Translations under genes and position numbers: made by a program
Source: Bacteroidaceae bacterium
Lineage (GTDB): Bacteria; Bacteroidota; Bacteroidia; Bacteroidales; Bacteroidaceae
NCBI GenBank assembly: GCA_902362375.1
Contig: CABIVS010000002.1
Span: 639,878-688,440 of the forward strand
Length of the DNA stretch: 48,563 nt
Direction: 5' to 3'
Shown: positions 30,815 through 48,412 of the stretch, one piece after another
How the letters are laid out: each line of letters opens with the position of its first letter
Position numbering within the stretch: position 1 is the first letter of the stretch
The notes under the pieces: model-generated
Databases searched by the model: none
What the model saw: only the letters and a program-made list of their open reading frames with translations
What the model was told of the DNA's origin: nothing

Positions 30815-32815
30815 TTATAGTTTGTATTTTAATGACTGTTTCTTTCCGTTTACTTTCACTTCTACTTCCAGACCGTTTTCATCGAACGCTTTGTTCTTGA
30901 ATTTAGCGTCAAATTTAGGGGCATCTGCGCTTTTCTTAACCGGGTAGATAACAGTGATGTAACGTACAGCTTCTTCACCGTCTTTTCTTACGTTGAATGA
31001 TACATTCATACGTTTGTAGCGTTTGCGATAAGCTGTTGAACACCATCCCGGTTCTTTCTTCATACTCATGCCGGCAGGGCCGAAGCATTGCAGTTTCATG
31101 TTGCTTCCATCCTCAAACTGTGTCAGGAATGTCATGTCTTCGCGGCTGTTGGCAATTTCTCCTTTCGGCATCTGATAGTGAAGATTGATAGAACCTTTAC
31201 CGCTACCTACCATTTCATCTACAATGACAAAGTAAGTGTTATTAACGAAGAAAACAGAACGGCGGTGTTTCAAATTCTTATAACTCGGATTTTCAGTTAC
31301 TAAAGTCTGGATAGCACCTTCCGGTTGCCACAACTTAGTAACAGATTCTGTTGTATCGAGATTCTTATTATCCAGGGTTACTGTGTTGTGAACACAAGTC
31401 TGACGGTGCCAGTTGCGTTGTTCCATTACTTCGCCTTCACCGGCGTATACATACGAACCTGAATCCGGGAACAAATTCTTACCGTTGAACCAAAGTTCAA
31501 ATGTTCCGTTGTCCGGCTGACAGTGCCAGAAAGCTTTCGGACCTGCCTTTACTACCATTTGGGTAGCATCCATTCCCCATGAATTACGGAATACAAAAAA
31601 GCCTGATTTCAGGAAACCTTTAGACATATAATCCGGCAATGCACCTTCTTTTCCTTCTGTAGCAAAGTATTTGATTGTCTGGTTCTTCGGGAACAGTTTA
31701 CTCCATGACTTGTAGTTTTTCACCATTTCTTTCTTTGTTGTCAACTTGGCGTCGCTGAAACATGGATTAGTGTAATCAGGGAAAGAAATGTTTGCATAGA
31801 ACATAATCATGTTTTCAATGGTATCCAAATAATCTTGGGGGAATTCCTTACGGAATCCGTTAGCATCTGCGATACCTAAGGCTTTACAGAAAATGTTAAT
31901 AGCTGCCAGATGATAATGTGGGTCAAGTTCGAACTGTCCGCCATCTTCGTATACTTGTACGTGAATTTCACGGTTCAGAATGTCGATACCACTTTTTCTC
32001 CAAGCCGGAGCATCTTTGAATTCAGGGAAAAAGGCACCTGCATAAATCATGCGTTGAGCTTCAAACAGTAAATGGTTGCCTTGATCCGAGTAATTAGCAA
32101 GGATATGTACAGCATGTTTGTAATAGTTCACCAGGAATTCTGTCAGGAAGTCCGGAGTGAAAGAAGGTGAGGGAAGGAATAACTGGAACTGTGAAGTCTG
32201 GTCTTGCAGACGATTACTCACTTCCAGGGGACGCCATGCAAAACGTACGTTTTCTACTTCGCCTTTGATTTTTCCATCACTTACCAGCTCATATTCTTTC
32301 TTGTCCATCTTCACTAACGGATTTTTTTTAATCCAATCGATATACTGGTGTGCCCATTCTTTAGCATATTTTTCATCACCGGATATACGGTAAGCCTTAC
32401 CCATCGGAGTGAACCATTTGTGACGGTGCAACTGCCAGCGGAGCTCATTATCTTTCACCGGCCAGTATTGCCAGTTGATATCTTCTCCATAATTGTAAGA
32501 AGGTTGATAACCTTTATGTACGAAGAATGTATGTTTCAATCCGTCATCCGCCCATTGCTGTTCTTCTTTGCTGATAGTCACTTTGTTCAGATTGATATCC
32601 GGAGTTTTTACGTTGGTACGTGCACGGTAATAGTCCAGTAATGCTTTGGCAGCATCCTCATCTTTACCCTCCTGATGCAAAGTTTTTACTTTCTCCAGTC
32701 CCGGATAGTCCAGGTTAAGGAGAGAAAAGACTTCGCTTTTCAGTTCTTGGGCGTAACCCTTGCTTACGAAACATGCGATTGCAAGCAGAACGATGTACTT
32801 TAAAGTTTTATTCAT
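30815..32815 (-). CDS. Polysaccharide lyase PL12, heparinase III (BT4657-like)
   Basis: 666 residues. A signal peptide of the cleavable type (LLAIACFVSKGYAQ, to about 22) and no lipobox indicate a periplasmic enzyme. Residues about 25-380 form the alpha/alpha toroid and 390-666 the beta-sandwich. Candidate catalytic residues are Asn247 in SDQGNHLL, Tyr301 in LDPHYHL and His431 in WHCQPDNGTFELWFNGKNLF. The family cleaves low-sulfated heparan sulfate by beta-elimination, leaving unsaturated uronates for the GH88 enzyme encoded next to it (28 bp upstream). Length and setting agree with BT4657. Confidence 0.93.
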   Translation of the reverse strand: MNKTLKYIVLLAIACFVSKGYAQELKSEVFSLLNLDYPGLEKVKTLHQEGKDEDAAKALLDYYRARTNVKTPDINLNKVTISKEEQQWADDGLKHTFFVHKGYQPSYNYGEDINWQYWPVKDNELRWQLHRHKWFTPMGKAYRISGDEKYAKEWAHQYIDWIKKNPLVKMDKKEYELVSDGKIKGEVENVRFAWRPLEVSNRLQDQTSQFQLFLPSPSFTPDFLTEFLVNYYKHAVHILANYSDQGNHLLFEAQRMIYAGAFFPEFKDAPAWRKSGIDILNREIHVQVYEDGGQFELDPHYHLAAINIFCKALGIADANGFRKEFPQDYLDTIENMIMFYANISFPDYTNPCFSDAKLTTKKEMVKNYKSWSKLFPKNQTIKYFATEGKEGALPDYMSKGFLKSGFFVFRNSWGMDATQMVVKAGPKAFWHCQPDNGTFELWFNGKNLFPDSGSYVYAGEGEVMEQRNWHRQTCVHNTVTLDNKNLDTTESVTKLWQPEGAIQTLVTENPSYKNLKHRRSVFFVNNTYFVIVDEMVGSGKGSINLHYQMPKGEIANSREDMTFLTQFEDGSNMKLQCFGPAGMSMKKEPGWCSTAYRKRYKRMNVSFNVRKDGEEAVRYITVIYPVKKSADAPKFDAKFKNKAFDENGLEVEVKVNGKKQSLKYKL

Positions 32816-32843: not shown

Positions 32844-34121
32844 TTAGATATCTTTATAGTTGATACCTTTCAGATCCATGAATCTCTTCAATGCTTCCAG
32901 ATAATAGTAGTCAGCATAGTTCAGTGGAGTGTCTATTTCAGAACCATTCGGCAGTGAACCTACGGAATGCATCAAAATGAATCCTTGATTGTCACCCACT
33001 TTTGCGAGATATGCATCACTTGACAAACTTTTCAGAATCTTTTCTGCATAATCCAGATATTTCTGTCCGTCGGGAACCATCGTACTTAGTTCGATCATTG
33101 CAGAAGCAGTAACAGAAGCGGCCGATACATCACGTGGAGTTTCTTTGGTTACAGGAGCATCATAATCCCAGTAAGGAATAGCATCATCCGTTTTTACGCG
33201 GTTCATAATCATATCAGCTATGTCCTTTGCAAAGTTCAGGAATATGCTGTCATTCGTTTCGCGGTAGCAAGCGGTATATCCGTATATAGCCCATGCCTGT
33301 CCCCGTGCCCATGAAGAGTCATCGTTTTTGCCTTGGAAAGTTTGTTTGTTTTCCACTGTTCCGTCGTTGTTATAGCTTACTACATGCCAGCAAGTATAAT
33401 CCGGGCGGAAGTGATTATGCATTGTAGTCATGGCATGCTTGATAGCGATGTCTTTATATCTATTGTCACCTGTTGCTTTTGCTACATTGAACAGAAGATC
33501 AAGGTTCATCATATTGTCGATAATAACCGGGAAGTTCCATGTTCCGAAATCCCATGAGCGAATAGCGCCGATGGAATCGTTGAAACGACCACAGAGGTTA
33601 TCGGCAGTTTCTTTCATCACTGCAGCGATTGTATCGTTAGGTGAAAGACGTTCTGCATTGCCGTAACTACAGTTGACCATAAATCCCAAATCATGTGTAC
33701 CTTTATAATAACGCACCGGATTCAGAAGATTTGTATATTCGATTGCTTGAGTTTTCAGTGTATTGTTTTCTGTTAGTTCGTATGCATACCATAATGAACC
33801 GGGGAAGAAACCACTCGTCCAGTCATAAACGTTGCAGAGGCGACGTTTGCCTAGCTGGTCAGCAGTGGGTTGTGCGCGTAGTGAATCCTTAAATGTTAAT
33901 GAATCTCTTTCCAACTGGCGGCAAAGGAAATTCATGTCATAGCCGGTACGGATGGAACGTGGCAACATCCCTGTACCACTAACCTCTTCAGCGGAAAGTT
34001 GTAATTGGGCAGAAGCTACATCCAGTCCTTTTTTTATCCAACTGTAGTCTTCCTTTGGGGTTGTCTGGCACGACGCGAGTGCAATACTAACCGAAGCAAA
34101 GAGAACAAGTTTCTTTTTCAT
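32844..34121 (-). CDS. Unsaturated glucuronyl hydrolase, GH88 (BT4658-like)
   Basis: 425 residues from the second Met (34121); three more codons upstream are possible. MKKKLVLFASVSIALASC is a lipoprotein signal. The alpha6/alpha6 barrel shows the GH88 marks. Numbered from the longer start, these are NVYDWTSGFFPGSLWYAYEL with Asp103, THDLGFMVNCSYG (His146) and NMMNLDLLF with Asp211, the two Asp residues corresponding to the catalytic pair of unsaturated glucuronyl hydrolases. The enzyme hydrates the 4,5-double bond of the uronate left by the lyases and so releases the next amino sugar. It begins the second half of the locus after a hairpin and has its own -7 box. Confidence 0.93.
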   Translation of the reverse strand: MKKKLVLFASVSIALASCQTTPKEDYSWIKKGLDVASAQLQLSAEEVSGTGMLPRSIRTGYDMNFLCRQLERDSLTFKDSLRAQPTADQLGKRRLCNVYDWTSGFFPGSLWYAYELTENNTLKTQAIEYTNLLNPVRYYKGTHDLGFMVNCSYGNAERLSPNDTIAAVMKETADNLCGRFNDSIGAIRSWDFGTWNFPVIIDNMMNLDLLFNVAKATGDNRYKDIAIKHAMTTMHNHFRPDYTCWHVVSYNNDGTVENKQTFQGKNDDSSWARGQAWAIYGYTACYRETNDSIFLNFAKDIADMIMNRVKTDDAIPYWDYDAPVTKETPRDVSAASVTASAMIELSTMVPDGQKYLDYAEKILKSLSSDAYLAKVGDNQGFILMHSVGSLPNGSEIDTPLNYADYYYLEALKRFMDLKGINYKDI

Positions 34122-34165
34122 GTTATTCATTTTAAGTGATTGTTTTTAGAAGTTTTGTACTGATG

Positions 34166-34314: not shown

Positions 34315-35988
34315 TTACCACTTAGGATTTTGATTGAATAAAATACATAAATCCATATCTCGTTGTGGAATAGGGAATAACTCATGTTTACCATTAACTG
34401 TATATGTTGCCACAGAATAATTAGGAGAGCCAGCACTTTCCCACCAATAACCTAATTCTTTCGCAGTCTCTTGTATGGTATTATAATAAATACCCCAACG
34501 AACTAAGTCCATACGTCGATGACCTTCGAATGATAATTCATAACTACGTTCTTTACGAACTGCTTCACGGAATCCTTTTTCATCAAGCCCTTCTGTTAAA
34601 TCACATGTACTTGTATTACCCGGGTTACCATAACCACGACGACGTACTGCATTAATAGCATTGTATGCATCGGTTGTAGGACCATGTTTCCATTCATTCA
34701 ATGCTTCAGCATATAACAACAATACATCAGCATACCGTAAGAAGTACCAATTTACATTTGATTTATCATTATTAATGAAACTGTTGGTCGTTACATATTT
34801 CTGAATATCCCATTTGGCTGGGGTATAATTCTGTTTATTTTTTTGTGCTTTTGTCGGATCTGCATCTTTTGCAGCTGCACTTTCTTCCGTGTCACTAGCA
34901 CTAGCTGCCCAAAGAGTTTTCTTTGTGTCAGTATATTGGTAGTTGGCTACGGACAAATCACGACGAATATCAGCTGTATTCTCTCTCCAGTCAAGTACAA
35001 ATGTATGAACTACCTTTACGTTAGCAGCACAACTTCCACGAACACCAGCAATTGCAGTAGTTTTTACCCCATTCCATTTACCGATACGCCCTACTGGATC
35101 ACTATTACCAGATACGGTTGGTGAGTAAAACGAAATTTCAATTAAGCTTTCAGTAGGATCCCAAACCCCATTACAAGTATTTTTCCATAATTGCTCATAA
35201 TCTGTTAGTAGTCCATGTTTTCCAGATTCAATTAGGATACGTGCAGTTTTGGCCGCAGCCTCCCATTTGGATGTATCTTTCACTGGATCTCCTGCCCAAG
35301 TAGCATAGACTTTAGTAAGTAATCCTAATGCAGCTCCTTTTGAAAAACGGTATTCATTACTTTCACGATATTGGTCATCGATTGCATATGGTAATATATC
35401 AGATGCATATAACAAATCATCTTCAATGTACTCATAGACTTTTTCTGGGGCTGATTGTACATATGTTGCCGGATCTTGATTAGACATTTCTGTACTGGTC
35501 ATCAAAACTACATTCCCAAATCGTCTTACTAACTCAAAATAAAACATAGCTCTTAATGCCCTGGCCTCTGCAATGTATATGGTTGCCAGTTTCTTATCAG
35601 TGTTAGTATACGATTCTATTTTGTTAGAAATACGTTCTAAAAAATCATTAGCCCTGTAGATACCTGTATAGAGTGCAGCCCATGTTTGCTGTACTTCTGA
35701 TTGTGTTGTGGGAAATGAGTTCGTAGGAATTATACGAAAGTTTTCATTGCCACTTCCTTCTACCTGTGAAATGTCTGTTCCTAAATTGAATAGTATGGAT
35801 AAATGATAACCATACATGGCATCTACAATGGTTGTACGGTATACGCCAAGTAATACATCCTTTGCTTCATCCGCATTGTTCATATAATTTTTCTTCTCTA
35901 CTTCAGTTCTGGTTTCTTCCTCCAATGAACAAGAAAAAGGAAGTAAACACATTACTGATATGGCTATATAGTATATTATCTTTTTCAT
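34315..35988 (-). CDS. SusD-family glycan-binding lipoprotein of the heparin locus (BT4659-like)
   Basis: 557 residues with the lipoprotein signal MKKIIYYIAISVMCLLPFSC and acidic residues after the Cys (SLEEETRTE), as in surface-exported lipoproteins. The RagB/SusD fold is seen in NNADEAKDVLLGVYRTTIVD near the N-terminus, IAEARALRAMFYFELVRRFG (about 135-155) and the C-terminal block VNWYFLRYADVLLLYAEALN with FEGHRRMDLVRWG. It captures heparan-sulfate oligosaccharides at the cell surface and lids the SusC barrel encoded 17 bp upstream. It is followed by a strong hairpin. Confidence 0.95.
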   Translation of the reverse strand: MKKIIYYIAISVMCLLPFSCSLEEETRTEVEKKNYMNNADEAKDVLLGVYRTTIVDAMYGYHLSILFNLGTDISQVEGSGNENFRIIPTNSFPTTQSEVQQTWAALYTGIYRANDFLERISNKIESYTNTDKKLATIYIAEARALRAMFYFELVRRFGNVVLMTSTEMSNQDPATYVQSAPEKVYEYIEDDLLYASDILPYAIDDQYRESNEYRFSKGAALGLLTKVYATWAGDPVKDTSKWEAAAKTARILIESGKHGLLTDYEQLWKNTCNGVWDPTESLIEISFYSPTVSGNSDPVGRIGKWNGVKTTAIAGVRGSCAANVKVVHTFVLDWRENTADIRRDLSVANYQYTDTKKTLWAASASDTEESAAAKDADPTKAQKNKQNYTPAKWDIQKYVTTNSFINNDKSNVNWYFLRYADVLLLYAEALNEWKHGPTTDAYNAINAVRRRGYGNPGNTSTCDLTEGLDEKGFREAVRKERSYELSFEGHRRMDLVRWGIYYNTIQETAKELGYWWESAGSPNYSVATYTVNGKHELFPIPQRDMDLCILFNQNPKW

Positions 35989-36005: not shown

Positions 36006-39000
36006 TTAGAATTGAAGATCAATACCAAATGTAAATACTCTACTCTTCGGGTAGGCACCCCAGTCTAGTCCTGGAGTCATAGGGTTGCTGCTTGCACTAT
36101 TAACTTCCGGGTCATAACCGCTGTATCCGCTTATGCAGAATAAATTCTGACCTGTTGCATATATGCGAAGCTTAGATGCATGAAACTTACGAGTCCATTT
36201 GTGTGGCAGTGTATATCCTAAAGTTATATTTTTTAAACGTAGGAATGAGCCATCTTCTATAAAGCGGGAATATACATCATTAACAATATATCCATCCTGT
36301 GAAGGAACTTTATTTGATGCATTTGTCGGACTCCAACGATCGGCAACTTCAGCCAACATATTTCTACGACCACTTCTGGATTGTGTAGCATACAAACGGG
36401 TAGCATTATATATGTCATTTCCATAATTGAACTGGAACATGAAACTGAAGTCTATACCTTTGTAATTAAATGTATTTGTAATACCACCATACCATTTGGG
36501 CATAGCATTACCAATAACGGTACGGTCATTAGTAGTAATAATGCCATCGCCATCCTGATCTTTATATTTCACAACACCCGGCTTAACACTACCATATCGT
36601 GCATTATTTGTGATTCCTTCTTTCAGAATCAACTGATTGTCAGGAGTTGTGTAAAAATCAGAACTTTGATAAATACCGTCAAATTCATATCCGTAAATAA
36701 GACCAAGTGACTGTCCGACTGTTGCAATATAGTCATATGCAGTAAAGTTGCTGTCGAATCCAGAACGTGCATACATTGACTCTACTCCTGAAGCTAATCC
36801 CTTCAACGTGTTTTTGATAAATGAGATGTTGAAGTTGGTCTGCCAAGTAAAGTTACGTGTCTGAATATTAGTAGAGTTAAGACTTAGCTCAATTCCTTTA
36901 TTCTGGATCTTACCAATATTCTGCATTTGTGAATCGAATCCAGTAACATGTGCTAATGACTGTGCTAATAATAGATCTTTTGTATCTTTGATAAAGAAAT
37001 CAGCTGTAACATTTAATCTGTTGTCAAAGAATCCTAAATCGACTCCTAAGTTAACACTGCTTGCGCCTTCCCATTTTAAATTAGCATTTTTCAATTGTTT
37101 GGGAGTTAGGACAGTAACAGTGTTGTTGCCAATTCCATATTTGTTTGCTTCATATAAATCCATGGAAAGATAATTGGAAATACGGTCATTTCCTACGATA
37201 CCCCAACCTAGACGGACTTTAAAATTAGATACCCATTCAACATCTTTCATGAAAGCTTCTTCCGAAACACGCCATGCGGCTGAAAATGAGGGGAAGAATC
37301 CCCACTTATTTTTATTAGAGAATACAGTTGATCCATCGGCACGTACTGTAGCTGTAAATAAATACCGATTATCATAGTTGTAGTTTCCACGTGCAAAGAA
37401 TGATAGAAGCGTTTTCTCGCTGTAACTACTTTCAACTCTACTCGGAGTAGCTCCCAGTCCCAGATAGTCGTTGCCTAAATTGTCAAAAGGGAAATCCATT
37501 GCTTCACCTAGTAAATATTCTGTGCTTTTAAAAGAAACTTCATGACCTAACATAATGTCATAGTTGTGCTTTTTTACCTTCTGTTTCCAAGTAAGGTTGT
37601 TGGAGTTTGTCCATCGTACGTCACGACCCATTTGTGTGCGTCCATAAGGTTTTTGACCATTACGGTATGCTTCTTTTGAACCATCTTTGTAGAATATATC
37701 TGTACGATTGTTGGTTGTATTGTAGGTCCCTGAAGTCTTGAATGTCAGTCCTTTAATGATCTGCCATGTTGCCGAAGCGTTTCCGGACCACATTTCTGCA
37801 CGTTTATTATTTGTTACCGACTCGGTTTGTTTAACTGGGTTTACTTGGGCTAAACTTTCACCTGATTCGAGCATTTCAGGGTCAATAGCTGAAGCTAGGA
37901 GTTCTTCGTCTGTCAGTTTTAGTCCACCCGTGGGACGGGCACTTAATATTTGTGCAAGCATATTGAAGCGTCCGGAATCACCGGATGTACCTACACCTTC
38001 ACGGTTTGTCAATGCATAGTTAACAGTAAAATTGAAGGAAAGGCTTTTACTTAATTTCTGATCAAGACGGAATTTACCTGTTGTTTTATTAAAACCACTA
38101 TTTTTGAAAATACCATTTTCAATATAGCGTGAGAATGATGCATTATATTTAGTATCTTCCGTACCTCCCATAATTGATAAACTATGATCTTGTGACCACG
38201 TCGGATTGAATGTTTCATCTTGCCAGTTTACACCGCTTACACCAATATAGTCATCCAGGGATTGATAACGATAAGGGTTTCCGTCATCATCATTTCCTGT
38301 TTTAAAATAACTGTCGGAGTATTTAGAGTTTACTTCTCCTTGTAATTTAACGAATTCATATGGAGATAGGACATCTAATTTCTTTGATATTTTACGATAA
38401 CTAGCTGAACCATTATAGTTAATAATAGGTTTCCCTATTTTTCCAGATTTAGTGCTGATCAATACGACTCCATTTGCTGCACGTGCACCATAAATAGCTG
38501 AAGAAGATGCGTCTTTCAGAATCTCAATAGACTCAATGTCAGAATTAGACAGATAGTCAATATCATCTACTTCAAAACCATCGACAATATAAAGTGGAGA
38601 GGAATCTCCCGTCAGAGTTCCGACACCACGGATATTAATACTGAAACCAGCACCTGGAGTACCATCTGTTGATGTGATTTGTACACCTGCGATTTGTCCT
38701 CCTAATGCGCCTGCCACTGAACTGGTTTTAAATCCTTCTACATCTTTGGCTGCTATAGAAGCTACGGAACCTGTTAAGTCACTGCGTTTCATTGTGCCAT
38801 AGCCAACTACAACTACTTCATCTAGAGTTTGGTTGTCAGGAACCATTTTAATGTTGACGGTAGGTTGCCCGGTAAATTTAATTTCCTGTGTTTTGTATCC
38901 AATATATGAGAATGTAATAACAGCACCTTTATTGGCTTTAATTGTATAATTACCATCAAAGTCAGTTATACTTCCAGTTGAAGTTCCTTTTACTTGTACA

Positions 39001-39149
39001 GTAGCTCCGATGAGAGGAGTATCTGTTTCGTCTACAATAACACCTTTTAAAGTGGCATTCTGGGCATATAGGCTGATCGTTAGGATCAGTGTCAAGAGGG
39101 TGAACCACCCTCTTGTGCTAATTGATTTTATAAAATTTATATTGTACAT
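36006..39149 (-). CDS. SusC-family TonB-dependent transporter of the heparin locus (BT4660-like)
   Basis: 1047 residues. A signal peptide ends at about 30 (LTLILTISLYAQ). CarboxypepD_reg-like domain about 33-115 (LKGVIVDETDTPLIGATVQV, then TDFDGNYTIKA), and the linker TLDEVVVVGYGTMKRSDLTG, the SusC hallmark. The plug contains INIRGVGTLTGDSSPLYIVD and IYGARAANGVVLISTK. The barrel ends VFTFGIDLQF with a terminal Phe, as expected for BAM-folded barrels. It takes up heparan-sulfate oligosaccharides with TonB energy. It is downstream of the glycan-binding protein gene (24 bp) and upstream of SusD (17 bp). Confidence 0.96.
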   Translation of the reverse strand: MYNINFIKSISTRGWFTLLTLILTISLYAQNATLKGVIVDETDTPLIGATVQVKGTSTGSITDFDGNYTIKANKGAVITFSYIGYKTQEIKFTGQPTVNIKMVPDNQTLDEVVVVGYGTMKRSDLTGSVASIAAKDVEGFKTSSVAGALGGQIAGVQITSTDGTPGAGFSINIRGVGTLTGDSSPLYIVDGFEVDDIDYLSNSDIESIEILKDASSSAIYGARAANGVVLISTKSGKIGKPIINYNGSASYRKISKKLDVLSPYEFVKLQGEVNSKYSDSYFKTGNDDDGNPYRYQSLDDYIGVSGVNWQDETFNPTWSQDHSLSIMGGTEDTKYNASFSRYIENGIFKNSGFNKTTGKFRLDQKLSKSLSFNFTVNYALTNREGVGTSGDSGRFNMLAQILSARPTGGLKLTDEELLASAIDPEMLESGESLAQVNPVKQTESVTNNKRAEMWSGNASATWQIIKGLTFKTSGTYNTTNNRTDIFYKDGSKEAYRNGQKPYGRTQMGRDVRWTNSNNLTWKQKVKKHNYDIMLGHEVSFKSTEYLLGEAMDFPFDNLGNDYLGLGATPSRVESSYSEKTLLSFFARGNYNYDNRYLFTATVRADGSTVFSNKNKWGFFPSFSAAWRVSEEAFMKDVEWVSNFKVRLGWGIVGNDRISNYLSMDLYEANKYGIGNNTVTVLTPKQLKNANLKWEGASSVNLGVDLGFFDNRLNVTADFFIKDTKDLLLAQSLAHVTGFDSQMQNIGKIQNKGIELSLNSTNIQTRNFTWQTNFNISFIKNTLKGLASGVESMYARSGFDSNFTAYDYIATVGQSLGLIYGYEFDGIYQSSDFYTTPDNQLILKEGITNNARYGSVKPGVVKYKDQDGDGIITTNDRTVIGNAMPKWYGGITNTFNYKGIDFSFMFQFNYGNDIYNATRLYATQSRSGRRNMLAEVADRWSPTNASNKVPSQDGYIVNDVYSRFIEDGSFLRLKNITLGYTLPHKWTRKFHASKLRIYATGQNLFCISGYSGYDPEVNSASSNPMTPGLDWGAYPKSRVFTFGIDLQF

Positions 39150-39173: not shown

Positions 39174-41354
39174 TTAGAATTTAGTATCAAACCAGATAAA
39201 CATAGGAGAAACTCTTGCTCCACTAGCAGCTCCTTGAGGATCTTCTCCTTTGACGCTGTAAGTCATTTGACCAATCATTGCTCCATTAGCATTGCCATCT
39301 TTTGTGCGCCACATATTAGGATTAATATGTACCTTAAAGTCGGTCTGATCTATGTATCCTAGAGGTTTACTCAAATCTGTTATATTATCAAAATATGAGA
39401 CAGGTTTTCTGGATGTACCTGCATCTATACTATATGAATTCCATAATGTAGATAAGAAATTGTTGACTCCTTGTGCTAATTGACCACTTATATGTGAATC
39501 GGGACCTGCTATGTTATAGTAGAAGAAATCACGTCTATAGTCTAATCTGAATGTTGATTTGTCTATATCGGTTCCTAAGCTTGGAGCTTCAGATACACCA
39601 CCTTTCATCGGATTAACTTGGAAGACAAATGGAGTGTATTCTAATTGTACATTATTATCTGATAAAGTAGAGAAGTGGAAGAATACGGGTTGACTTACAG
39701 AAACTGCAGTTTTTCCTTCTCCTGCTGTAGCTGTAACCATAACCATACCACATTGTCCGGCTTTTAAACCTGTGATAGTAATTTGTCCGGTAGTAGCATC
39801 GATAGTTGCTTTTGTATTGTTGGGATTATGCTTCAATTCAACCTCCCATTTTAACGATTCCAATCCACCCGATGCATCTGTTGAAACTGGCGTAGGTTTG
39901 ACTGTGTTGAGTTTAGCACCAGCTGCAATTCTAAATTGATCAGCGTAGTTCTCTATTGGCTGTAAGTTTAGATTGTTTCCATAACGGAAGAAGGTGAAAT
40001 AATTCGGATTTTCTATAATCTTCAATGTAAATGTCGCAGTTTCTGAACCTTTGGTATTTGTTGCCATCACTTGAACGGTATACTGTCCGACAGGAATAGT
40101 ATTACCTTTTTTAATAGTGATGTTGCCATCCAGATCAAGATTTAATTGTCCTTGAAGTTCAGTTGCGAGGTCTATGAACTCATATTTCACTTCATCACCT
40201 TTGAAGTTGTCATTCTTCTGAATATCAATTTCTACAGCTTGAACTTCTTCTACATTAGTATATCCGAAATTGGCTATCGGCTCTATAAATTCGACTGCAT
40301 TTAATGTGAGTACATTTTCAAATACGACCCCTTCTGTAGAGTATTCGTTTATAACTTTGACACTGATTTCGTATTTTTCTCCATCTTTGAAACCATGATG
40401 CGCAGCCACAGACAATACTCCAGTTGTTGGATCTATAGTAATTTTGTCTGTACTTGGGCTTATTGAGCTGATGCTGTAAGTCAACCCTTCTGTAGAACCT
40501 TTCAGTACTGGTGGGTTGCTCTGGAAAGTTGTTTCCGGACTAAGCTCTCCCTCTTCTTCTATTTTACCTTCATTGGGAGTATATGTTAGAGACAGAGGTC
40601 TGGAAGTGACATTAATTTCCAATGCATTTTCAAAAATACCCATTTCAGGATCTTCTCCAGTCGCTGCTGTTGTTAACTTGAATGATAAGATGTATTTGCC
40701 AGGTTGGATATTCTGGTTACCTTTGATAATTGATATTTCGCCGGTTTCCGAAACTGTAAAATAAGTGTCTGGGTCTTCTATTATAGTTTCATTCCATACA
40801 ACGGAAGCAATTGTGTAGTTTGTAATGGAAATATGATTACCTTCCGTTGTTATTTGTGAGGTCGGTAATTCTTGACTGCTTTCAGTATCAATAATATCTG
40901 CATATTCTACCTGAAGTTTTTCAGGAATGGCTTTGATGCCATCTGGCACAGGTTTCATCATATTGATTTCTACAATATCTGCATATTCGTATCTGCTACC
41001 ATTAGAATAGCAAGAGATAGATAACTTGTACAAGCCTACTGGAGTATTGCCTGTACTATTTAATGTGATTTTTCCTGTTTCTGAATCAATGGTAAAGATA
41101 TTGCCAGAAAAGGCTTCTCCATCGAGTGTTATTTTGGTAATACTAAAATCGTATGGAGTACTACCTTTGTAAGTCGGACTACTGATAATTCCTGTCATGG
41201 AAGGGCCGATATCAGTCATACCTGTGTAGTAAATAGTAAACTTCGTAGAGTCAGTGGTTTCCGTATCAGTACAAGAACTATTGACTACTGTCAATATGAT
41301 TACTATGAGTGTTCCTAGTAATCTTGAAGTAATGTTTAGTAATTTAGATCTCAT
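39174..41354 (-). CDS. Surface glycan-binding lipoprotein with tandem beta-sandwich repeats (BT4661-like)
   Basis: 726 residues. The signal LIVIILTVVNSSC is lipidated at Cys and followed by acidic TDTETTD. About five Ig/cadherin-like repeats follow, each with an FTID-x-x-TGxIxL turn and an x-P-x-GxYxLxV strand: FTIDSETGKITLNSTGNTPV (about 86-105), FTVSETGEISII, ITIDPTTGVLSVAA, LNLDLDGNITIKKGNTIPVG and ATIDATTGQITITGL. The last ~250 residues form a separate C-terminal domain that presumably binds glycan. It corresponds in place to BT4661, a heparin-binding surface protein. It is predicted to hold the chain for SusCD and the surface lyase and has no enzyme motif. It lies 18 bp after the PL12 gene. 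Confidence 0.88.
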   Translation of the reverse strand: MRSKLLNITSRLLGTLIVIILTVVNSSCTDTETTDSTKFTIYYTGMTDIGPSMTGIISSPTYKGSTPYDFSITKITLDGEAFSGNIFTIDSETGKITLNSTGNTPVGLYKLSISCYSNGSRYEYADIVEINMMKPVPDGIKAIPEKLQVEYADIIDTESSQELPTSQITTEGNHISITNYTIASVVWNETIIEDPDTYFTVSETGEISIIKGNQNIQPGKYILSFKLTTAATGEDPEMGIFENALEINVTSRPLSLTYTPNEGKIEEEGELSPETTFQSNPPVLKGSTEGLTYSISSISPSTDKITIDPTTGVLSVAAHHGFKDGEKYEISVKVINEYSTEGVVFENVLTLNAVEFIEPIANFGYTNVEEVQAVEIDIQKNDNFKGDEVKYEFIDLATELQGQLNLDLDGNITIKKGNTIPVGQYTVQVMATNTKGSETATFTLKIIENPNYFTFFRYGNNLNLQPIENYADQFRIAAGAKLNTVKPTPVSTDASGGLESLKWEVELKHNPNNTKATIDATTGQITITGLKAGQCGMVMVTATAGEGKTAVSVSQPVFFHFSTLSDNNVQLEYTPFVFQVNPMKGGVSEAPSLGTDIDKSTFRLDYRRDFFYYNIAGPDSHISGQLAQGVNNFLSTLWNSYSIDAGTSRKPVSYFDNITDLSKPLGYIDQTDFKVHINPNMWRTKDGNANGAMIGQMTYSVKGEDPQGAASGARVSPMFIWFDTKF

Positions 41355-41372: not shown

Positions 41373-43481
41373 TTATAAGGTATATGATAATGGGTATATA
41401 GTTCCTCCTACATTTACTTCTATAGATACGCTATTTTCACTATATCCGTTATCTGTGAAATGAGCAGATATGTTATTTATATCAGTGCTTTTTTTAACTG
41501 GTATGATAACTGTGATATAACGTGCTGTTTCATTAGATTCTTTATTCATATCTATAGTATATGATTGCCGGTCATTATAGTTACCGTCAACAAGATATGC
41601 TATGCGTCCTGTAAAAGGTGAACAGGTTATCTCCTTATTGGCAAAAGTACGTACAATGATATTATTGTCATTGCTAAATGCTGTATGAACACCGTTTTCT
41701 TCTTTGTCCATAACTACTTCGGTACTACTACCTTCACAAAGATTAAAGCTTAGATTTACAGTACCTTCAGCACTCCCAATGCCTTCGTCTACCAGTACGA
41801 AAAATTCTTTATTTACATAAAATACAGCACGACGGTGTTTTAAGTTGTCATATCCTTGATTCTCAAATACAACAAGTTCTGTTGCACCTTCTTCAGATTT
41901 TAAAAGTTTGCCTTCGGCCTTTTTTATGTTTTGCTTCCCTAATGATAATGTATTATGCTTGTCAATACCGCGAAACCAATAACGTAGTGTGTTGTCGCCA
42001 CCAGTACTGTAATAGGTACATACTCCTGAATCGGGGAAGAAATTACGCCCATTGTGATAAAGTTCAAATGTTCCATTGTCAGGTTGATTATGGCTGTATG
42101 CACTGATAGAGTTGGAGGCGTCATTACTTTTATTATTACTTAAAATCATGACAGTAGAGCCATACGTCCAGCCGTTGCGTAATACGTAATATCCTGCTTG
42201 GTCAAATAATTTCATATCGTTATTTGGAGTATGTCCTTGGGGAGTACCACCGTTACCTGCAGTTTGCATGTATTTAAGTTCCTCACTGTTAGGGAACATT
42301 TCTACATATTGTTTGAAATTTGTATTTTTAAGTACATTACGTGTCCGACTCCATGAATCATTAAACATGGGTACTACATTATCAGAACCTTTGCTAAAAT
42401 AGTTGGGATAAGTGAAATGCATTACTACTTCAGCTGCTTTGCGAAGTGGTTCTGTAAAATTACTAGGCAATTTACTGGAAAGTTGGTTTGCCTCTGCTAA
42501 TTTCATAGCCTCATAGAAATCTGCTACAATACTTATATGATAATGAAGAGACATTTCTTTATGCCATCCATCACTCATTATCTGATTTTGTACTTCTTCA
42601 CTAAGTATTTGGTAACCAGTTTCCATCCATTTTTCAGCATTTTTGAATTCCGGCATTAATGTTCCGGCAGTTGCCAGTGCATTAGCTTGTGATATCAGAA
42701 TATTACCTCCTGATTCATAAGGATAATCAACAAGAAAGTCAGCTTGCTCTGCAAACTCTACTAAAAAAGTAGTAAGCCATTCTGGTGTGAAATTAATAGA
42801 GTTTTTGAAGTATTCCAATAATTGTACTTGATCATTGATACGGGTTGCTACTTGTAATTGCCACCAAGACGTTGTGTTTGTACCGCTTTCCGGTTTAGGA
42901 TTTTGGTCTATCCAATTATTATATACCTCAATCCATGATTGAATGTATTTTTCATTTCCGCTAATTCGATAGGCTTTAGCCTGTGGAATAAACCATTGAT
43001 GGCGATGTAGTTGTTTCTGATACTCGTCAGAGGCACCTTCTGGAGAAAATGTCCAATTAATCGTTCCATCTTTCTTTAAAGAATATGGTTTCAATGTTTC
43101 TTGATCTTCATAGAAATTGTTTACATGAAAGCGATAGTCCTCCAATGCATAATCCGCTTTTGTTTGATCTGCTTCTGAGATTGTTACATTAATTAAGGAC
43201 AAATTGGGATTAGTAACATTAGTTCTTGTTCTGTAGTATTCCAATAAAGCATTGGCCGCGTAATAATATTCCCCTGTTTCATAGAATTCTTTCACTTTTT
43301 CTAATCCGGGATAATTAAGGTTGATAATGTCGAATACGTTGGTATTTACAACATCATTGGGCTTAGAATCGGGAAGTAGATCTATATCTACATTTCCTCC
43401 GGTTAATAGATCGTCGTCATCGTCTGCGCATCCTGTAAAAGCGAAAAGCGCACATAAACAAATAAAGAAGATGTTCTTCAT
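41373..43481 (-). CDS. Surface polysaccharide lyase PL12, heparinase-type lipoprotein (BT4662-like)
   Basis: 702 residues. The lipoprotein signal LCALFAFTGC (Cys18) is followed by an acidic run (ADDDDD), the typical surface-export tag, so it probably acts outside the cell on long chains. The alpha/alpha toroid spans about 45-420 and the beta-sandwich 430-702. Catalytic candidates are Asn260 in YESGGNILIS, Tyr314 in SLHYHI and the His of SHNQPDNGTFELYHNGRNFF. It is closer in sequence to the lyase encoded at 46009-48144 than to the periplasmic one at 30815. It opens the SusC/SusD transcript, with its own promoter and operator-like palindrome in the 249-bp gap upstream. Confidence 0.92.
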   Translation of the reverse strand: MKNIFFICLCALFAFTGCADDDDDLLTGGNVDIDLLPDSKPNDVVNTNVFDIINLNYPGLEKVKEFYETGEYYYAANALLEYYRTRTNVTNPNLSLINVTISEADQTKADYALEDYRFHVNNFYEDQETLKPYSLKKDGTINWTFSPEGASDEYQKQLHRHQWFIPQAKAYRISGNEKYIQSWIEVYNNWIDQNPKPESGTNTTSWWQLQVATRINDQVQLLEYFKNSINFTPEWLTTFLVEFAEQADFLVDYPYESGGNILISQANALATAGTLMPEFKNAEKWMETGYQILSEEVQNQIMSDGWHKEMSLHYHISIVADFYEAMKLAEANQLSSKLPSNFTEPLRKAAEVVMHFTYPNYFSKGSDNVVPMFNDSWSRTRNVLKNTNFKQYVEMFPNSEELKYMQTAGNGGTPQGHTPNNDMKLFDQAGYYVLRNGWTYGSTVMILSNNKSNDASNSISAYSHNQPDNGTFELYHNGRNFFPDSGVCTYYSTGGDNTLRYWFRGIDKHNTLSLGKQNIKKAEGKLLKSEEGATELVVFENQGYDNLKHRRAVFYVNKEFFVLVDEGIGSAEGTVNLSFNLCEGSSTEVVMDKEENGVHTAFSNDNNIIVRTFANKEITCSPFTGRIAYLVDGNYNDRQSYTIDMNKESNETARYITVIIPVKKSTDINNISAHFTDNGYSENSVSIEVNVGGTIYPLSYTL

Positions 43482-43730: not shown

Positions 43731-45992
43731 CTATTGGATGATTTTTAATCCATAATGATTTTTGGAAGTATGAGGAATCGGAGAAATAATAAAATCTGGC
43801 TTTTCTCCTTGAGGGGAAATGTAGACCTCTTCTCCTTTTTTTAAATCAATCCGATAAGTATTGCTTTCGAGTGATTGTACAGTGAAGTCTCTTTCTCCTT
43901 TAAAGATAGGGTTAACTATATCAGTCGTTATAATGCAAGGTTCTCCAGCCAGACTTTTGATATGGATGAATTGTGTTTTTCCCTGTTTTCTGCTAGCAGA
44001 AACTTTGAACGCTCCTTCCGTACGCAGACCGGAATAGGCGATGTCTTTCCATGCATCAGGAATAGCTGGAAAAATGCGGATTTTTCCACCCCAACTTTGT
44101 AGTAGCATGTCGTGAATACTTTGAGCACCGGAAAGAGGCGTTTCAATAACAGGACCGCTCTCCCTATACATGGTGGTTGGACTGAGAAACTTGCCAAATA
44201 ATTTGTTTAAATAAGTTAGTGCGTCATTTCCCTTTCCGATGGCAGAGGATATGGAAGATGCACCTGTACATGAATAACCTAAGAGAGCTTTGGGCTTGCT
44301 TTGCCAGAAAGTGAGTGATTTTTCAATCGTTTCGATACCGCCCGGCTGTTCTTTATTGATAAGGTACAGCGGATAGATGGCGAGTAGATGCGAATAATGT
44401 CTATGAGAGAATGCATATGGCATATCTTTCCCAATAAGTAATCCATTCTTATCCATAGGATAAGGAGTTAGATTATAAAGGACGTCTTTCCATGTATTAG
44501 CCAATGGATCTTGAATGTTCAGACGATGGGCTGATTCCAATAGAGTTTGGCATCCCCAACGTAATAATGCAAGATCAAAATTACAATCTTCCGTACTATC
44601 GTACTCAGGAGAATAAGTTGCCGGAAGGTGAAATTTCCCATCTTCTCCTTTTTTAAGAAAATGCAGGTAGTAGTTGATTGACTCTTTTAATAAAGGAAAT
44701 AGTTTATTCCGTAGAATGTCATCATCCATTTTATGACGGTAGATAAGCCATAGGTTGTGACAGGCCCATGGGAGCAGGCCTACTTGCGCTTTACCTTTTC
44801 CGGGAATACCTACTTCTGTAGTCATACATTCCAAATTGGAAGCGACTCCTATGCCTAATGAATTATGACGATAATTAGGATGAATGTTGAGACGTAACTG
44901 GTCTATGTGATTGTAAAGTGCATTTTCTAAAGAGGCTGCGAGATCTAAATGGTCGGAAGCATTTAGTGCCCAGTATGTGAGCTGTACATTGAGGTTCCAC
45001 CAAGCATTTGGCCAGGGAGTTTCCGTCAGCCATGGACCTGTATTGTCTATTAGAGCACGGTCGCTACGGGTAGCAGAAGCTAGTTTGTACATTTGAATCC
45101 AATAAAAGTTCTCTTTTTGTGCTTCCGGTAATGTGATGAAGCTACTTGGATAAAAGGAATTCCACCATTTACGATGTGTCTTTTGCAAGGATGGATAGCC
45201 TTCGCTTATAGCTTTCCGGATTTCAGTTTTACATATTTCACTCGAATTATTTTGAGGATATGTATGTGTAAGGTTTATCCATAAGGTACGTTCCTTTTTA
45301 GTTGATTGAGTCTCTTTCCAGCCTACTGTTGTTTCACCACCTGCCAATAACTTCTGAACAGATAAGTTGATATCTTCTTTTCGAGTGATTGTTGGTGCAG
45401 GATTGAGTTCATAGTCTTTGGGAATTTTATTGATTTGTCCCCGCCTTTTAAAAAGTAGATAGCGGGGGCTATTGGCTTCAGCCGCTACCCATTCCCATTT
45501 GAAGTCATGTTCTTCTCCTTCTGTAGTTGCTTTTACTGCTATTATCATATTGTCAGCATGGGCAAAGGTTTGTAGGTGGATAACCCCTTTGGTGGTGATA
45601 ATATCTGTTGATGCTTCGGCATTCCAAAGGTCAAGGCGCATCTTACCGCTGATTATTTCTCCTCTAGGATGCAGGGCAAAGTAACCGGTAAGTAGTCGGG
45701 GGATCCCGAATACATCTCTTTTTGTACGATGGTCATGCACATCACAGTTACCGGTTTCCAGACGCAAGTAGTTTTCACCGGGTGCTTTGTAGATCATTAA
45801 TCCTAATTTGCCGTTGCCTAGATAAGCTGATTCATACCAGTATTCTGGCAGCTTTTCCCATACCATATCTTGCTGGCTCATGAATTCAGGCCAATTAATA
45901 TCCTGTTTAAGAGTTGTAGAATGGGCGTCTACAGTGAAAGAACAGATTAAAAATAGAAAGATACAGTTAAGGTATTTACGTCGAATATTCAT
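43731..45992 (-). CDS. GH95-like glycoside hydrolase, divergent active site
   Basis: 753 residues with a cleavable signal peptide (CIFLFLICSFTVDAHS). Residues about 45-290 are the N-terminal beta-sandwich (ESAYLGNGKLGLMIY), about 295-640 the (alpha/alpha)6 barrel and 640-753 a C-terminal beta domain. GH95-type landmarks are the N-x-N pair in WWNLNVQLTYW (Asn333, Asn335), YSPEYD with the general-acid candidate Glu463, HRHYSHLLAIYP (530-541) and MLLQSWGGKIRIFPAIPDAW. By hand alignment the catalytic Asp of the fucosidase IDGNFG motif is Glu617 here (VIETPL). GH95 enzymes act on alpha-L-fucosides or L-galactosides, which heparan sulfate lacks, so the substrate is open. It lies 16 bp after the PL12 gene and shares its transcript. 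Confidence 0.8.
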   Translation of the reverse strand: MNIRRKYLNCIFLFLICSFTVDAHSTTLKQDINWPEFMSQQDMVWEKLPEYWYESAYLGNGKLGLMIYKAPGENYLRLETGNCDVHDHRTKRDVFGIPRLLTGYFALHPRGEIISGKMRLDLWNAEASTDIITTKGVIHLQTFAHADNMIIAVKATTEGEEHDFKWEWVAAEANSPRYLLFKRRGQINKIPKDYELNPAPTITRKEDINLSVQKLLAGGETTVGWKETQSTKKERTLWINLTHTYPQNNSSEICKTEIRKAISEGYPSLQKTHRKWWNSFYPSSFITLPEAQKENFYWIQMYKLASATRSDRALIDNTGPWLTETPWPNAWWNLNVQLTYWALNASDHLDLAASLENALYNHIDQLRLNIHPNYRHNSLGIGVASNLECMTTEVGIPGKGKAQVGLLPWACHNLWLIYRHKMDDDILRNKLFPLLKESINYYLHFLKKGEDGKFHLPATYSPEYDSTEDCNFDLALLRWGCQTLLESAHRLNIQDPLANTWKDVLYNLTPYPMDKNGLLIGKDMPYAFSHRHYSHLLAIYPLYLINKEQPGGIETIEKSLTFWQSKPKALLGYSCTGASSISSAIGKGNDALTYLNKLFGKFLSPTTMYRESGPVIETPLSGAQSIHDMLLQSWGGKIRIFPAIPDAWKDIAYSGLRTEGAFKVSASRKQGKTQFIHIKSLAGEPCIITTDIVNPIFKGERDFTVQSLESNTYRIDLKKGEEVYISPQGEKPDFIISPIPHTSKNHYGLKIIQ

Positions 45993-46008: not shown

Positions 46009-48144
46009 TTAATTCTTAAGTTCGTAATTTAGATTATATGTTTCATTATCAATTGTCACTTCAATAGAAACATTATCTGAATCTGAAGGATTATCTGTGA
46101 ATTTAGCGTTAATCTTGTGATTGAAAGCTGTTGTTACCGGATATAATATGGTAATATAACGTACGGATGTGTTTTTCTTTTTCTCCATAACTAATGAATA
46201 AGCTTTTCTGACAGAGAATTTTCTATCTGTCTGATATGAGATTCGTCCCTCAAAAGGTTTTAATACAATGTCTTGATTCCCAAAACTGCGAATAAGCAAG
46301 TTGTTATTATCTTCAAAAGTTGTATGCGCACCCATCTCTTGAATATCCAAATTGACATTGTTGACTGATGTCTCGTCACAAAGATGGAAATATAATTTGG
46401 AATATCCGGTAGCTGCTCCAAAGCCTTCATCTACAAAAGCGAAGAATTCGACAGGCTTTTTCACATAGAAGATGGCACGGCGGTGTTTGAAGTTACTATA
46501 TCCTTGATTTTCTGTTATTATTAGTTGTTGGTTATCGTTTTCTTCTGATAATAATAGTTTGCCTTGTGCCTTGTTGATGTCTTCGGTTCCGGTGGCTTCA
46601 TGCTCTTCCAATTGTCCCAAAACCATAGTATTGTGCGCTTTGGTCTGACGGAACCACCTGCGTAATTCCATTACTTCCGTATCATTTTCTTTCATATATG
46701 AACAAACGCCGGAATCCGGAAAGAAGTTGCGACCATTGTGATATAGTTCGAACGTCCCATTGTCGAGTTGGTTGTGACTTGAATCTTCTAATTTGGAAGA
46801 TACATTGTTGCTGTGTACCAACATTGTTGATTGGGGAGTCCAGCCATTGCGTAATACATAGAATCCAGAGTATTCGAACGTTTTGATTTTGGTATCGGGT
46901 GGAGTTCCTTTTCCGTATGTTTTCATGTAGTCAAGTTCTGAATCATCCGGGAACATTTTGGCATATTTTACGAAGTTCTTGTTCAGTACACTGCGTGTTT
47001 TTATCCACGAATCGTTGAATGCAGGACTGCAATCCTTACTTCCTTTAATGAAGTAGCTAGGATATGTAAAGTGCATGACGACTTTAGTGGCTTTCAGCAA
47101 GACGTTGTCGAGTTCTGGAGAAAGCAGGTTGTCCGGTAGCTTATTTAATTGGATTAATCTCTTTAAATCATATAGCCCGTCCACTATACCTATGTGATAG
47201 TGGAGTGAGAGATCATTCGTCATCCCATCTCTTAAAAACAATTTTGTGGTTTGCTCATTAATGATGTTACATCCTGTTTTTTGCCACTGTGGGGCATTTT
47301 TTAGTTCGGGGAATAAGGTTCCTGCAAAGACTAATGCTACTGCTTGGCTTAGTAGAATATTGTTTTCTCCGGTGTATTTGTACATGGACAAATAGTCGGC
47401 GTGTTCTGCAAAGTGTATGAGGAAAAAAGAAAGCCATTCGGTTGTGAAGTTGGGAGAGGACTTGAAATGCTCGAATGATTCTGTTTGTCCCATGATACGT
47501 GTGGATACCTGAAGTTGATACCATTTGAACTTGTCCGGTTTTCCATCAGGTTTGGGGTTCTTGGCAATCCAGTCGGTATATACTTCTTTCCATGAATATA
47601 TGTATTTTTCATCGTGAGAGTTTTGGTAAGCTTTCCCTTGAAGGGGCATCCAGTTATGACGATGTAATTGTTTTTGATATTCATTGTCGGCTCCTTTGGG
47701 AGCAAATTCCCAGTTAATTGTTTTATCGTTGTTTTGCAATGAATAAGGGATCTTTCTGGTTTTGTCTTCCAGATAATTGTCATTGACATAAAAGCGATAT
47801 TCGTTTATTGCATAGTCGGCATATCCTTGTTCCGTTTCATTAAGGGTAGTAGATAGGTTTGGATTTATTATCTCTGTTCTATTCTTGTAATAGGTGAGCA
47901 GCTTTTTCAGGGCAGCATCACTGTCATCGGTTTCATACAGAGATTTTACCTCCTCCAATCCGGGATAATCAAGATTGAGTATTTCAAATAAATATTCTTC
48001 AGTATTCTCTTTCGGAGGTGTCGGTTCCTCTTTTGACGGAATGTCATTGTTCTCTTTTTGAGGGATATCATTATCAGTACATCCTACGATTGTAAAGACA
48101 AAGACTAGCAATATATTAATCCGGAAACCGTTTTTGAAATTCAT
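46009..48144 (-). CDS. Additional surface PL12 lyase lipoprotein
   Basis: 711 residues from the Met at 48144. The frame is open 73 codons further, but MNFKNGFRINILLVFVFTIV and the lipid Cys at 22 (VGC) form a complete lipoprotein signal, and the promoter box lies within the longer frame. An acidic, Pro-rich linker follows (TDNDIPQK, then EEPTPPKENTEE). PL12 landmarks are Asn262 in GENNILLS, Tyr316 in SLHYHI and the His of SHNQLDNGTFELYHNGRNFF, where the usual Pro is Leu. It is a paralogue of the lyase at 41373, sharing FFPDSGVC. It begins the upstream transcript with the GH95-like gene and probably broadens the range of chains cut at the surface. Confidence 0.9.
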   Translation of the reverse strand: MNFKNGFRINILLVFVFTIVGCTDNDIPQKENNDIPSKEEPTPPKENTEEYLFEILNLDYPGLEEVKSLYETDDSDAALKKLLTYYKNRTEIINPNLSTTLNETEQGYADYAINEYRFYVNDNYLEDKTRKIPYSLQNNDKTINWEFAPKGADNEYQKQLHRHNWMPLQGKAYQNSHDEKYIYSWKEVYTDWIAKNPKPDGKPDKFKWYQLQVSTRIMGQTESFEHFKSSPNFTTEWLSFFLIHFAEHADYLSMYKYTGENNILLSQAVALVFAGTLFPELKNAPQWQKTGCNIINEQTTKLFLRDGMTNDLSLHYHIGIVDGLYDLKRLIQLNKLPDNLLSPELDNVLLKATKVVMHFTYPSYFIKGSKDCSPAFNDSWIKTRSVLNKNFVKYAKMFPDDSELDYMKTYGKGTPPDTKIKTFEYSGFYVLRNGWTPQSTMLVHSNNVSSKLEDSSHNQLDNGTFELYHNGRNFFPDSGVCSYMKENDTEVMELRRWFRQTKAHNTMVLGQLEEHEATGTEDINKAQGKLLLSEENDNQQLIITENQGYSNFKHRRAIFYVKKPVEFFAFVDEGFGAATGYSKLYFHLCDETSVNNVNLDIQEMGAHTTFEDNNNLLIRSFGNQDIVLKPFEGRISYQTDRKFSVRKAYSLVMEKKKNTSVRYITILYPVTTAFNHKINAKFTDNPSDSDNVSIEVTIDNETYNLNYELKN

Positions 48145-48412
48145 AGTATAAATTTTAGTTTGGATAGATTTTAATTTATATGAGAGCTGGTTATTAACTC
48201 TATGCAAATATATGGGGTAAAGTAGCTTTGTTGCTAATAGTTTTATCGAATAGTATATCAAATTTGTGCAATGATTCTGCTTGATATATATAAAGGACAG
48301 TATTCTTTCTCTAAATGATGCAGAAGTATTAACGATTTCATCTAATTGAATTTTATAAATCATGCTATCTTTTTAGTAACTTCTTTTAATTAGTTTAGTC
48401 AGTTACAGTTAG
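48145..48412. other. AT-rich gap between the PL12 gene and the insertion sequence
   Basis: No coding frame fits here apart from the non-translated extension of the PL12 frame. A -7 box (48205-48212) is the only recognised signal. A regulator site may lie here, but I see no palindrome or phased repeat as clear as those at 43547-43579. Confidence 0.4.
48205..48212 (-). promoter_or_regulatory. -7 box of the PL12/GH95-like operon
   Basis: The minus strand reads TATATTTG, 61 bp before the chosen start codon at 48144. No TTTG at -33 spacing, which fits an activator-dependent promoter. Confidence 0.5.

Follow-up and report, generated by a model that had tools for sequence, protein, structure and literature searches.

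The question raised by this locus is what a relative of the fucose-removing enzymes of family GH95 does among genes for the breakdown of heparan sulfate. The gene lies on the minus strand at 43731..45992 of a stretch of 48,563 nucleotides from a Bacteroidaceae bacterium (contig CABIVS010000002.1; the whole stretch is called the window here). From the open reading frame list, Pfam and a predicted structure, it encodes a GH95-like protein of 753 residues with an ATG start. An earlier note, made from the letters of the DNA, had described an altered catalytic Asp and had proposed that the protein might belong to a new subfamily or have a new activity, with a glycosaminoglycan as one possible target. 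A separate clade, changed active-site columns and recurrent glycosaminoglycan loci agree with that general proposal. Sequence comparisons point to an uncharacterised cousin of the fucose-removing enzymes with a rebuilt active site. The explanation that we consider somewhat probable is that the protein is a glycosaminoglycan exo-glycosidase of an uncharacterised, GH95-related family, inverting and catalytically competent, rather than a fucosidase, and that its core clade was recruited mainly to the breakdown of glycosaminoglycans (heparan sulfate, chondroitin/dermatan).

The predicted structure shows the architecture of GH95, with an N-terminal beta-domain, a helical (alpha/alpha)6 barrel (about residues 250-630) and a C-terminal beta-domain. 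When this fold was used for a structural search, the top six entries were GH95 enzymes, with 18-20% identity in the structural alignments. The overlay on GH95 that had been suggested holds at the level of the whole fold. Pfam found PF22124 (GH95 catalytic) at 100.7 bits, above the cut-off of 27 and far below the 381-613 bits of 25 canonical copies, and PF21307 (GH95 C-terminal) at 50 bits, with a cut-off of 27.6. The usual GH95 N-terminal domain, PF14498, gave no match at E 0.01, but the part concerned is still covered by the fold match to GH95. Among solved structures, phmmer matched 2rdy, 7kmq, 8zbv, 7znz, 7zo0, 2eab/2eae/2ead and 4ufc, and 9hmb weakly; the sole NCBIfam model was the kojibiose hydrolase NF053734, at 18 bits far under its cut-off of 800. 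A putative type I signal peptide without a lipobox (45924..45992, minus strand), judged by eye, suggests that the protein is probably periplasmic.

Alignments place Asn333-Leu-Asn335 (44988..44996; this and the following residues are on the minus strand) opposite Asn421/Asn423 of AfcA from Bifidobacterium bifidum, and Glu463 (44604..44606), in an SPE motif at 461-463, opposite the AfcA general acid Glu566. The motif HRHYSHL is also kept, at 530-536 (44385..44405), one residue beyond the 529-535 first reported. The column of the fucosidase Asp (AfcA D766) holds Glu617 (44142..44144), within VIETPL at 615-620, both by phmmer (the Asp of IDgnf in 2rdy and 7kmq) and by MAFFT (the Asp of IDGNFG), and GNFG is lost, with TPLS in its place. 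The motifs and the altered Asp had therefore been read correctly, except for that shift by one. The description was incomplete, however, since Asp-to-Glu comes together with further, linked changes: the same proteins also differ at 611, 316 and 573/577. Glu611 (44160..44162) replaces the His of the canonical 'DAHPPFQIDG', Asp316 (45045..45047) the canonical Asn (PANLQG), and Tyr573/Gly577 (GYSxTG; Tyr573 at 44274..44276) the Trp of GWSMGW. By its residues the protein has the Asn-x-Asn pair and the acid Glu of GH95, and the Asp of IDGNFG, the His of DAHPP and the Trp of GWS are all absent.

These features are nearly invariant among relatives. Glu617 was found in 112 of 113 rows of a first alignment, query included, and in 152 of the 154 homologues of a wider one (one Ala, one Asp), which combined 112 proteins of 700-820 residues from the best 120 of 3061 with 42 more. 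Such conservation in the sampled relatives rules out chance, a frameshift or a sequencing error at this position. In the same alignment Glu611 occurs in 154/154, Asp316 in 148 and Tyr573 in 145; Asn335, Glu463, Arg531 and His532 are each kept in 153, and Asn333 in 139, with Asp in the remaining 15. The 25 canonical proteins, 24 of them from the genus of the nearest genome (23% of sampled words in common) and one from another family, uniformly have Asp at the 617 column, Trp at 573 and Glu at 463, with His at 611 in 23 (one Leu, one Ser) and Asn at 316 in 24.

In a maximum-likelihood tree of 46 proteins, a branch 3.5 changes per column long sets eight canonical GH95 rows apart. All 34 rows of the window's family group in a single clade (100/100), itself on a further branch of length 2.3, and next to it stand four rows of a sister branch; the tree program warns that long branches meet. 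The sister branch consists of uncharacterised Bacteroides PF22124 proteins (loci L067-L070 and L161-L169 in our numbering), about 25% identical to the window's family, with PF22124 scores of 166.5 and 175.1 bits in the two tested and TLEGNF or TLEGNM in 11 of 11 rows shown. It shares the Glu at the 617 column and GYS instead of GWS, but keeps EGNF/EGNM and has Asn at the 611 column and Cys or Ser at 316. Glu617, which might have seemed peculiar to the window protein, thus marks its whole family and more, since it is also found in the sister branch; Glu611 does not occur there. The more distant L062-L064 have Glu at 617 and Leu or Pro at 611.

Named members of the family include proteins from Nonomuraea, Longispora, Neorhodopirellula, Coraliomargarita and Opitutaceae; the Bacteroides, Nonomuraea, Neorhodopirellula and Coraliomargarita members presumably represent four phyla. 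The spread is patchy, with matches in 23/99 genomes of the nearest genus at E 1e-30 (sister branch included), 15/399 of the family at E 1e-150 and 9/393 of the order at E 1e-90. Broken or shortened copies in two genomes, one with a split frame (L071:1446-3538, the same as L018/L037) and one of 687 residues whose match ends at residue 637 (L085:9237-11300), suggest loss of the gene in some strains. Two paralogues inside the clade, on a long branch and with housekeeping-like neighbours (L096:1304-3532 and L097:9023-11251), have lost SPE, HRH and Glu617; they are probable pseudoenzymes, perhaps sugar sensors. Four more distant members (P0122, P0125, P0126 and P0143, of which P0126 is from Nonomuraea) carry the extra domains PF15892, PF03422 and PF12708, which we take to be BNR-repeat, CBM6 and pectate-lyase-like.

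The closest known enzymes are those of GH95 (AfcA, BACOVA_03438, Xac1774, FucOB). According to excerpts of PMC12282258 (the PMC articles cited here are all drawn on in excerpt), Asn423 of AfcA is the proposed base, activated by D766, and Asn421 is thought to position the acid E566, so that "catalytic Asp" was loose wording for this residue. No carboxylate is placed as base in BACOVA_03438 either, in the excerpts of PMC4491172. In GH139 (BT0984, a 2-O-methyl-alpha-L-fucosidase), the D766 column is occupied by Asn729, and Asp723, six residues earlier, bonds the base Asn412 and is its proposed activator (PMC12282258). In the window protein both of these positions carry an acid, Glu611 and Glu617, again six residues apart. 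It shares with GH139 only the acid at the -6 seat, and differs in having Glu617 at the column of Asn729 and Asn333-Leu-Asn335 rather than the adjacent Gln411-Asn412; the sequence match to the GH139 entries 9hmb and 9hyq spans just 48 and 62 profile positions.

The hydrolases of GH65 (FjGH65A kojibiose hydrolase, human PGGHG), to which the sequence match is as weak as the NF053734 score, have an ordinary Glu as their base, located in this same loop (PMC8626586). An hhalign alignment pairs Glu617 with the GH65 base Glu616, but through a 7-residue gap. A fragment of residues 245-617 was also folded to see which residue of each solved structure matches its end, giving a poorer model (predicted local distance difference test 79.5, about 35-41 in the stretch with the Asn-Asn pair). 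The controls were missed by +4 in 2eac (770 vs 766), 7kmq (694 vs 690) and 9hyq (733 vs 729); from this common shift Glu617, D766, D690 and N729 look in register, within the limits of a poor truncated model. In GH65 the end fell on 631 of 7fe3 (base 616) and on 590 of PGGHG (Glu574 per entry titles), which would put the GH65 Glu about 11-12 residues before the D766 column, in a model whose control is off by +4.

The mechanism that we propose for such an active site is an inverting one. Glu463 would protonate the leaving group, and a water held at Asn335 would attack from the opposite side, the base function being that of Asn335 assisted by Glu617 (the D766 seat of AfcA) and/or Glu611 (the D723 seat of GH139). 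Asp723 of GH139 would clash with O4 of L-fucose in the GH95 binding mode (PMC12282258). Since Glu611 is expected to block that mode in the same way, the -1 sugar is probably neither L-fucose nor L-galactose. The GH95 -1 subsite is further described as a Trp flanked by two His (PMC12282258), which the alignments suggest fall on the 573 and 611 columns. The C6-contacting Thr370 and His419 of GH95 (PMC4491172) fall on Trp332 in one alignment and on Trp331 by counting back from the Asn, with unsure gap placement, and were not used as evidence.

It could be argued that the protein is nonetheless an ordinary GH95-type enzyme, taking alpha-L-fucose (or L-galactose) off glycans found alongside proteoglycans, and that Glu617 simply stands in for the Asp. 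The retained Asn-Asn pair, acid Glu and HRH and the six GH95 entries heading the structural list fit this explanation, as do the fucosidase-domain (PF01120) protein in the L052 locus and the name alpha-L-fucosidase 2 that some database sources give to homologues. It would have to accommodate changes at 611, 573/577 and 316 that all fall on conserved GH95 columns, an acid in the 611 seat said to clash with L-fucose O4 (PMC12282258), the low PF22124 score and the separate clade, and we regard it as unlikely.

The argument for glycosaminoglycans comes from gene context. Core loci were defined by at least 46% identity, window included, and numbered 27 after duplicates had been merged (e.g. L002/L073 for L086, L003/L074 for L087, L009/L081 for L095, L013/L098 for L001 and L014/L099 for L007); the partial or contig-end matches L036, L040, L047 and L050 were left out of the counts. 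In BLAST searches at E 1e-20, with 13 glycosaminoglycan enzymes as queries, at least one such enzyme was found within about 10 kb in 19 of the 27. The control figures were 1/20 for canonical GH95 loci, 1/11 for more distant relatives and 3/13 for the sister branch (L162, L164 and L169), a set in which 11 of the 13 proteins were seen to read EGNF/EGNM and the other two were assigned by similarity. Without the window the core count is 18/26, with Fisher p values of 8e-6 (canonical), 0.008 (sister branch) and 0.001 (distant). With only the window's own PL12, PL15-type and GH88 proteins as queries it is 13/26, compared with 1/20 (p 9e-4), 0/13 and 0/11. The p values overstate the case in that the loci are related by descent, and the counts understate it in that some core contigs are short (L012 3.7 kb; L056, L071, L091 and L008 about 12 kb).

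The partners are varied. PL12 lies near the GH95-like gene in the window, L001 (B. finegoldii), L007 (B. faecis), L085, L011, L055, L056 and L094; GH88 in the window and eight other loci; PL15-type twice in L093, with a weak piece lacking a Pfam match in L012; and GH89 in L086, L087, L056 and L092. A PL8 gene comes immediately downstream in L004 and L005, and L092 has one elsewhere; that of L004 is closest to chondroitinase AC (1cb8, 291.5 bits). In L088:8749-12984 a GH95-like part and a PL8 part, both confirmed by Pfam, share one frame of 1411 residues. This is probably a real fusion rather than a lost stop codon, since the junction lacks the signal-peptide-like start that the PL8 of L004/L005 shows. 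We rejected the idea of a stray insertion into the window locus, as relatives turn up again in several loci of different build that hold glycosaminoglycan enzymes.

Several observations weigh against a glycosaminoglycan role. Some of the 13 queries had been picked from core loci, which inflates 19/27, and the loci are not independent, L086/L087, L004/L005 and L054/L055/L093/L094 being close kin. The paralogues L096/L097, counted as distant, fall inside the core in the tree, and moving them gives 18/28. Eight of the 27 core loci have no glycosaminoglycan enzyme: L006, L008 and L095 are in surroundings that look like housekeeping genes from a few Pfam matches, L071 and L091 are also negative, and L090, L053 and L060 lie beside SusC/D, GH16-like or GH43-like genes (the last two by eye). 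The partners are not exclusive to the core, as the sister-branch locus L164 has a heparinase-like protein (85% identical to that of L055) and a GH89 (70%). The loci L086/L087, with GH89 and alpha-galactosidase-type genes, and L052, with a GH29-type fucosidase, could be mucin-type, and more distant relatives lie near sulfatase, GH43-, GH106- or GH105-like genes (mostly by eye). No second PL8 fusion was found among the 46 matches listed, none of which covers more than 54% of the fused protein. A uronate in the -1 site would sit badly with the extra acidic active-site residues, and the activity itself is inferred from sequence, predicted fold and context.

Those eight negative loci, together with GH43-, GH106- and GH116-like genes seen by eye near more distant relatives and the homologues in Nonomuraea, Neorhodopirellula and Coraliomargarita, could also mean that the gene neighbourhood is a product of ordinary reshuffling among utilisation loci, and that the enzyme cuts another dietary or microbial polysaccharide. 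Reshuffling does not readily account for the 13/26 versus 1/20 obtained with the window's queries, for partner kinds that differ across subclades (two kinds of PL12, PL15-type, PL8, heparinase-like) or for an L088 fusion without the PL8 signal peptide, and it appears improbable.

Which sugar a glycosaminoglycan enzyme of this kind would remove can be narrowed from the order of breakdown. The unsaturated uronates left behind by lyases are taken off by GH88; at the chain end then come glucosamine derivatives (alpha in heparan sulfate) or beta-N-acetylgalactosamine, followed by glucuronic acid or alpha-L-iduronic acid. The protein would trim a terminal, probably alpha-linked, sugar from oligosaccharides released by the PL12 lyases, and may thereby take from glycosaminoglycan chains a sugar that no studied cousin is known to remove. 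L-iduronate is the only sugar known to be alpha-linked in both heparan and dermatan chains, so that an alpha-L-iduronidase would explain the PL12 and PL8 partners at once. Terminal L-iduronate being shared, the same activity would cover PL15-type, GH88 and GH89 partners and the one chondroitinase-AC-like fusion. The protein would then found a new glycoside hydrolase family as a bacterial exo-alpha-L-iduronidase (or a hydrolase of another terminal alpha-linked glycosaminoglycan sugar), inverting and with a base of two carboxylates plus Asn, by which gut Bacteroidota would continue hydrolytically where lyases stall. We advance this only tentatively, as somewhat unlikely in its own right and as one part of the more general reading.

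A different special case of the glycosaminoglycan exo-glycosidase, whose probability is included in that of the general reading, is an alpha-glucosaminidase that acts in series with GH89 and removes terminal glucosamine or N-sulfated glucosamine from heparan sulfate after GH88. The PL8 partners in L004, L005 and the L088 fusion tell against it, though, as chondroitin and hyaluronan have no alpha-hexosamine. The GH89 neighbours in L086, L087, L056 and L092 fit, GH89 being the enzyme that removes N-acetylglucosamine, and the gained acids (Glu611, Asp316) would suit a free amine. Furthermore, a B. thetaiotaomicron GH89 cleaves heparosan oligosaccharides (PMC8225759), and related GH65 enzymes cut alpha-glucosides (PMC8626586). 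On balance this activity seems quite doubtful. A non-catalytic sugar-binding relic is highly improbable, for although decay exists in the family (L096/L097) and a GH139 member without its acid is regarded as a likely binding protein (PMC12282258), the window protein has every expected catalytic residue, and these are nearly invariant in the sample.

The window itself bears out the heparan-sulfate locus described in the earlier note; the genes given with coordinates in this paragraph are all on the minus strand. Upstream of the GH95-like gene, 16 bp before its start, ends a PL12 heparan-sulfate lyase gene (46009..48363; Pfam, NCBIfam), and the two are likely in the same operon. This PL12 probably begins later than listed, at Met74 (about 48144), which has a lipobox-like IVGC after it and lies near the beginning of the HepC model. 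A second PL12 (41373..43481; HepC model, 1339.7 bits) follows downstream after a 249-bp gap, and beyond it lie a BT4661-like surface glycan-binding protein (39174..41354; PF16319, 1145.5 bits), a SusC-like receptor (36006..39149; Pfam, NCBIfam), a SusD-like protein (34315..35988; Pfam), a GH88-domain protein, unsaturated glucuronyl hydrolase-like (32844..34130; PF07470, 32.6 bits, cut-off 26.6), a third PL12 (30815..32815; Pfam, NCBIfam), a sulfatase (29144..30760; Pfam) and a heparinase II/III-like protein near the solved 6lja (22296..24917; 1408.5 bits), which we take to be PL15-type. A ROK kinase and a major facilitator superfamily transporter are also in the locus. By eye, both PL12 neighbours have lipobox-like N-termini and the GH95-like protein a plain signal-peptide-like one, an arrangement consistent with lyases at the surface and a trimming enzyme in the periplasm. 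A Bacteroides promoter motif had 4 matches versus 1.7 expected, none adjoining the GH95-like gene.

Other proteins recur in these surroundings. A 542-residue protein at 27350-28978, in which Pfam sees a weak DUF3604 stretch alone, has a 78% identical homologue in the L011 heparan-sulfate locus; it did not enter the locus counts. A small protein lies beside GH88 and the GH95-like gene in L054:8426-9172, L055:12902-13594 and L094:13181-13873; that of L054 matches DUF6250, with a 3-keto-disaccharide hydrolase domain below the cut-off, so that an oxidative step may be imagined for such loci. Proteins of 611-677 residues with a heparinase II/III C-terminal domain, possibly PL33/PL35/PL37-like lyases, are found at L055:15164-17110, L088:6906-8741 and L089:726-2759 by Pfam and at L054:4906-6846 by BLAST.

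The other genes of the window fit the B. thetaiotaomicron heparin/heparan-sulfate locus BT4652-BT4675 (PL15, two PL12, GH88, SusC/D and the BT4661 surface glycan-binding protein; PMC9067506), and the PL15-type label would follow by analogy with BT4652-PL15 (PMC9067506). Unlike that locus, the window contains the GH95-like gene and a further PL12; both lie upstream of the PL12 whose gene comes before that of the surface glycan-binding protein. No GH95 is mentioned in the excerpted text of PMC9067506, nor in that of PMC9745678, PMC11980591 and PMC8225759. Among the papers listed from the open-licence PMC literature (often the first 5-20 of more), covered by titles and abstract starts and with subscription journals and preprints outside its scope, there was no GH95-type enzyme in a heparan-sulfate or chondroitin locus, and no paper on DUF5703. 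CAZy may already treat the window's clade separately.

The double carboxylate beside the Asn pair offers a natural experiment on the amide-base enzymes GH95 and GH139. The names carried by the clade in genomes (GH95, alpha-L-fucosidase 2) are probably wrong. If the enzyme does act on glycosaminoglycans, it would add a hydrolytic step to pathways that have been described as lyase-driven, and would provide a tool for sequencing heparan or dermatan chains.

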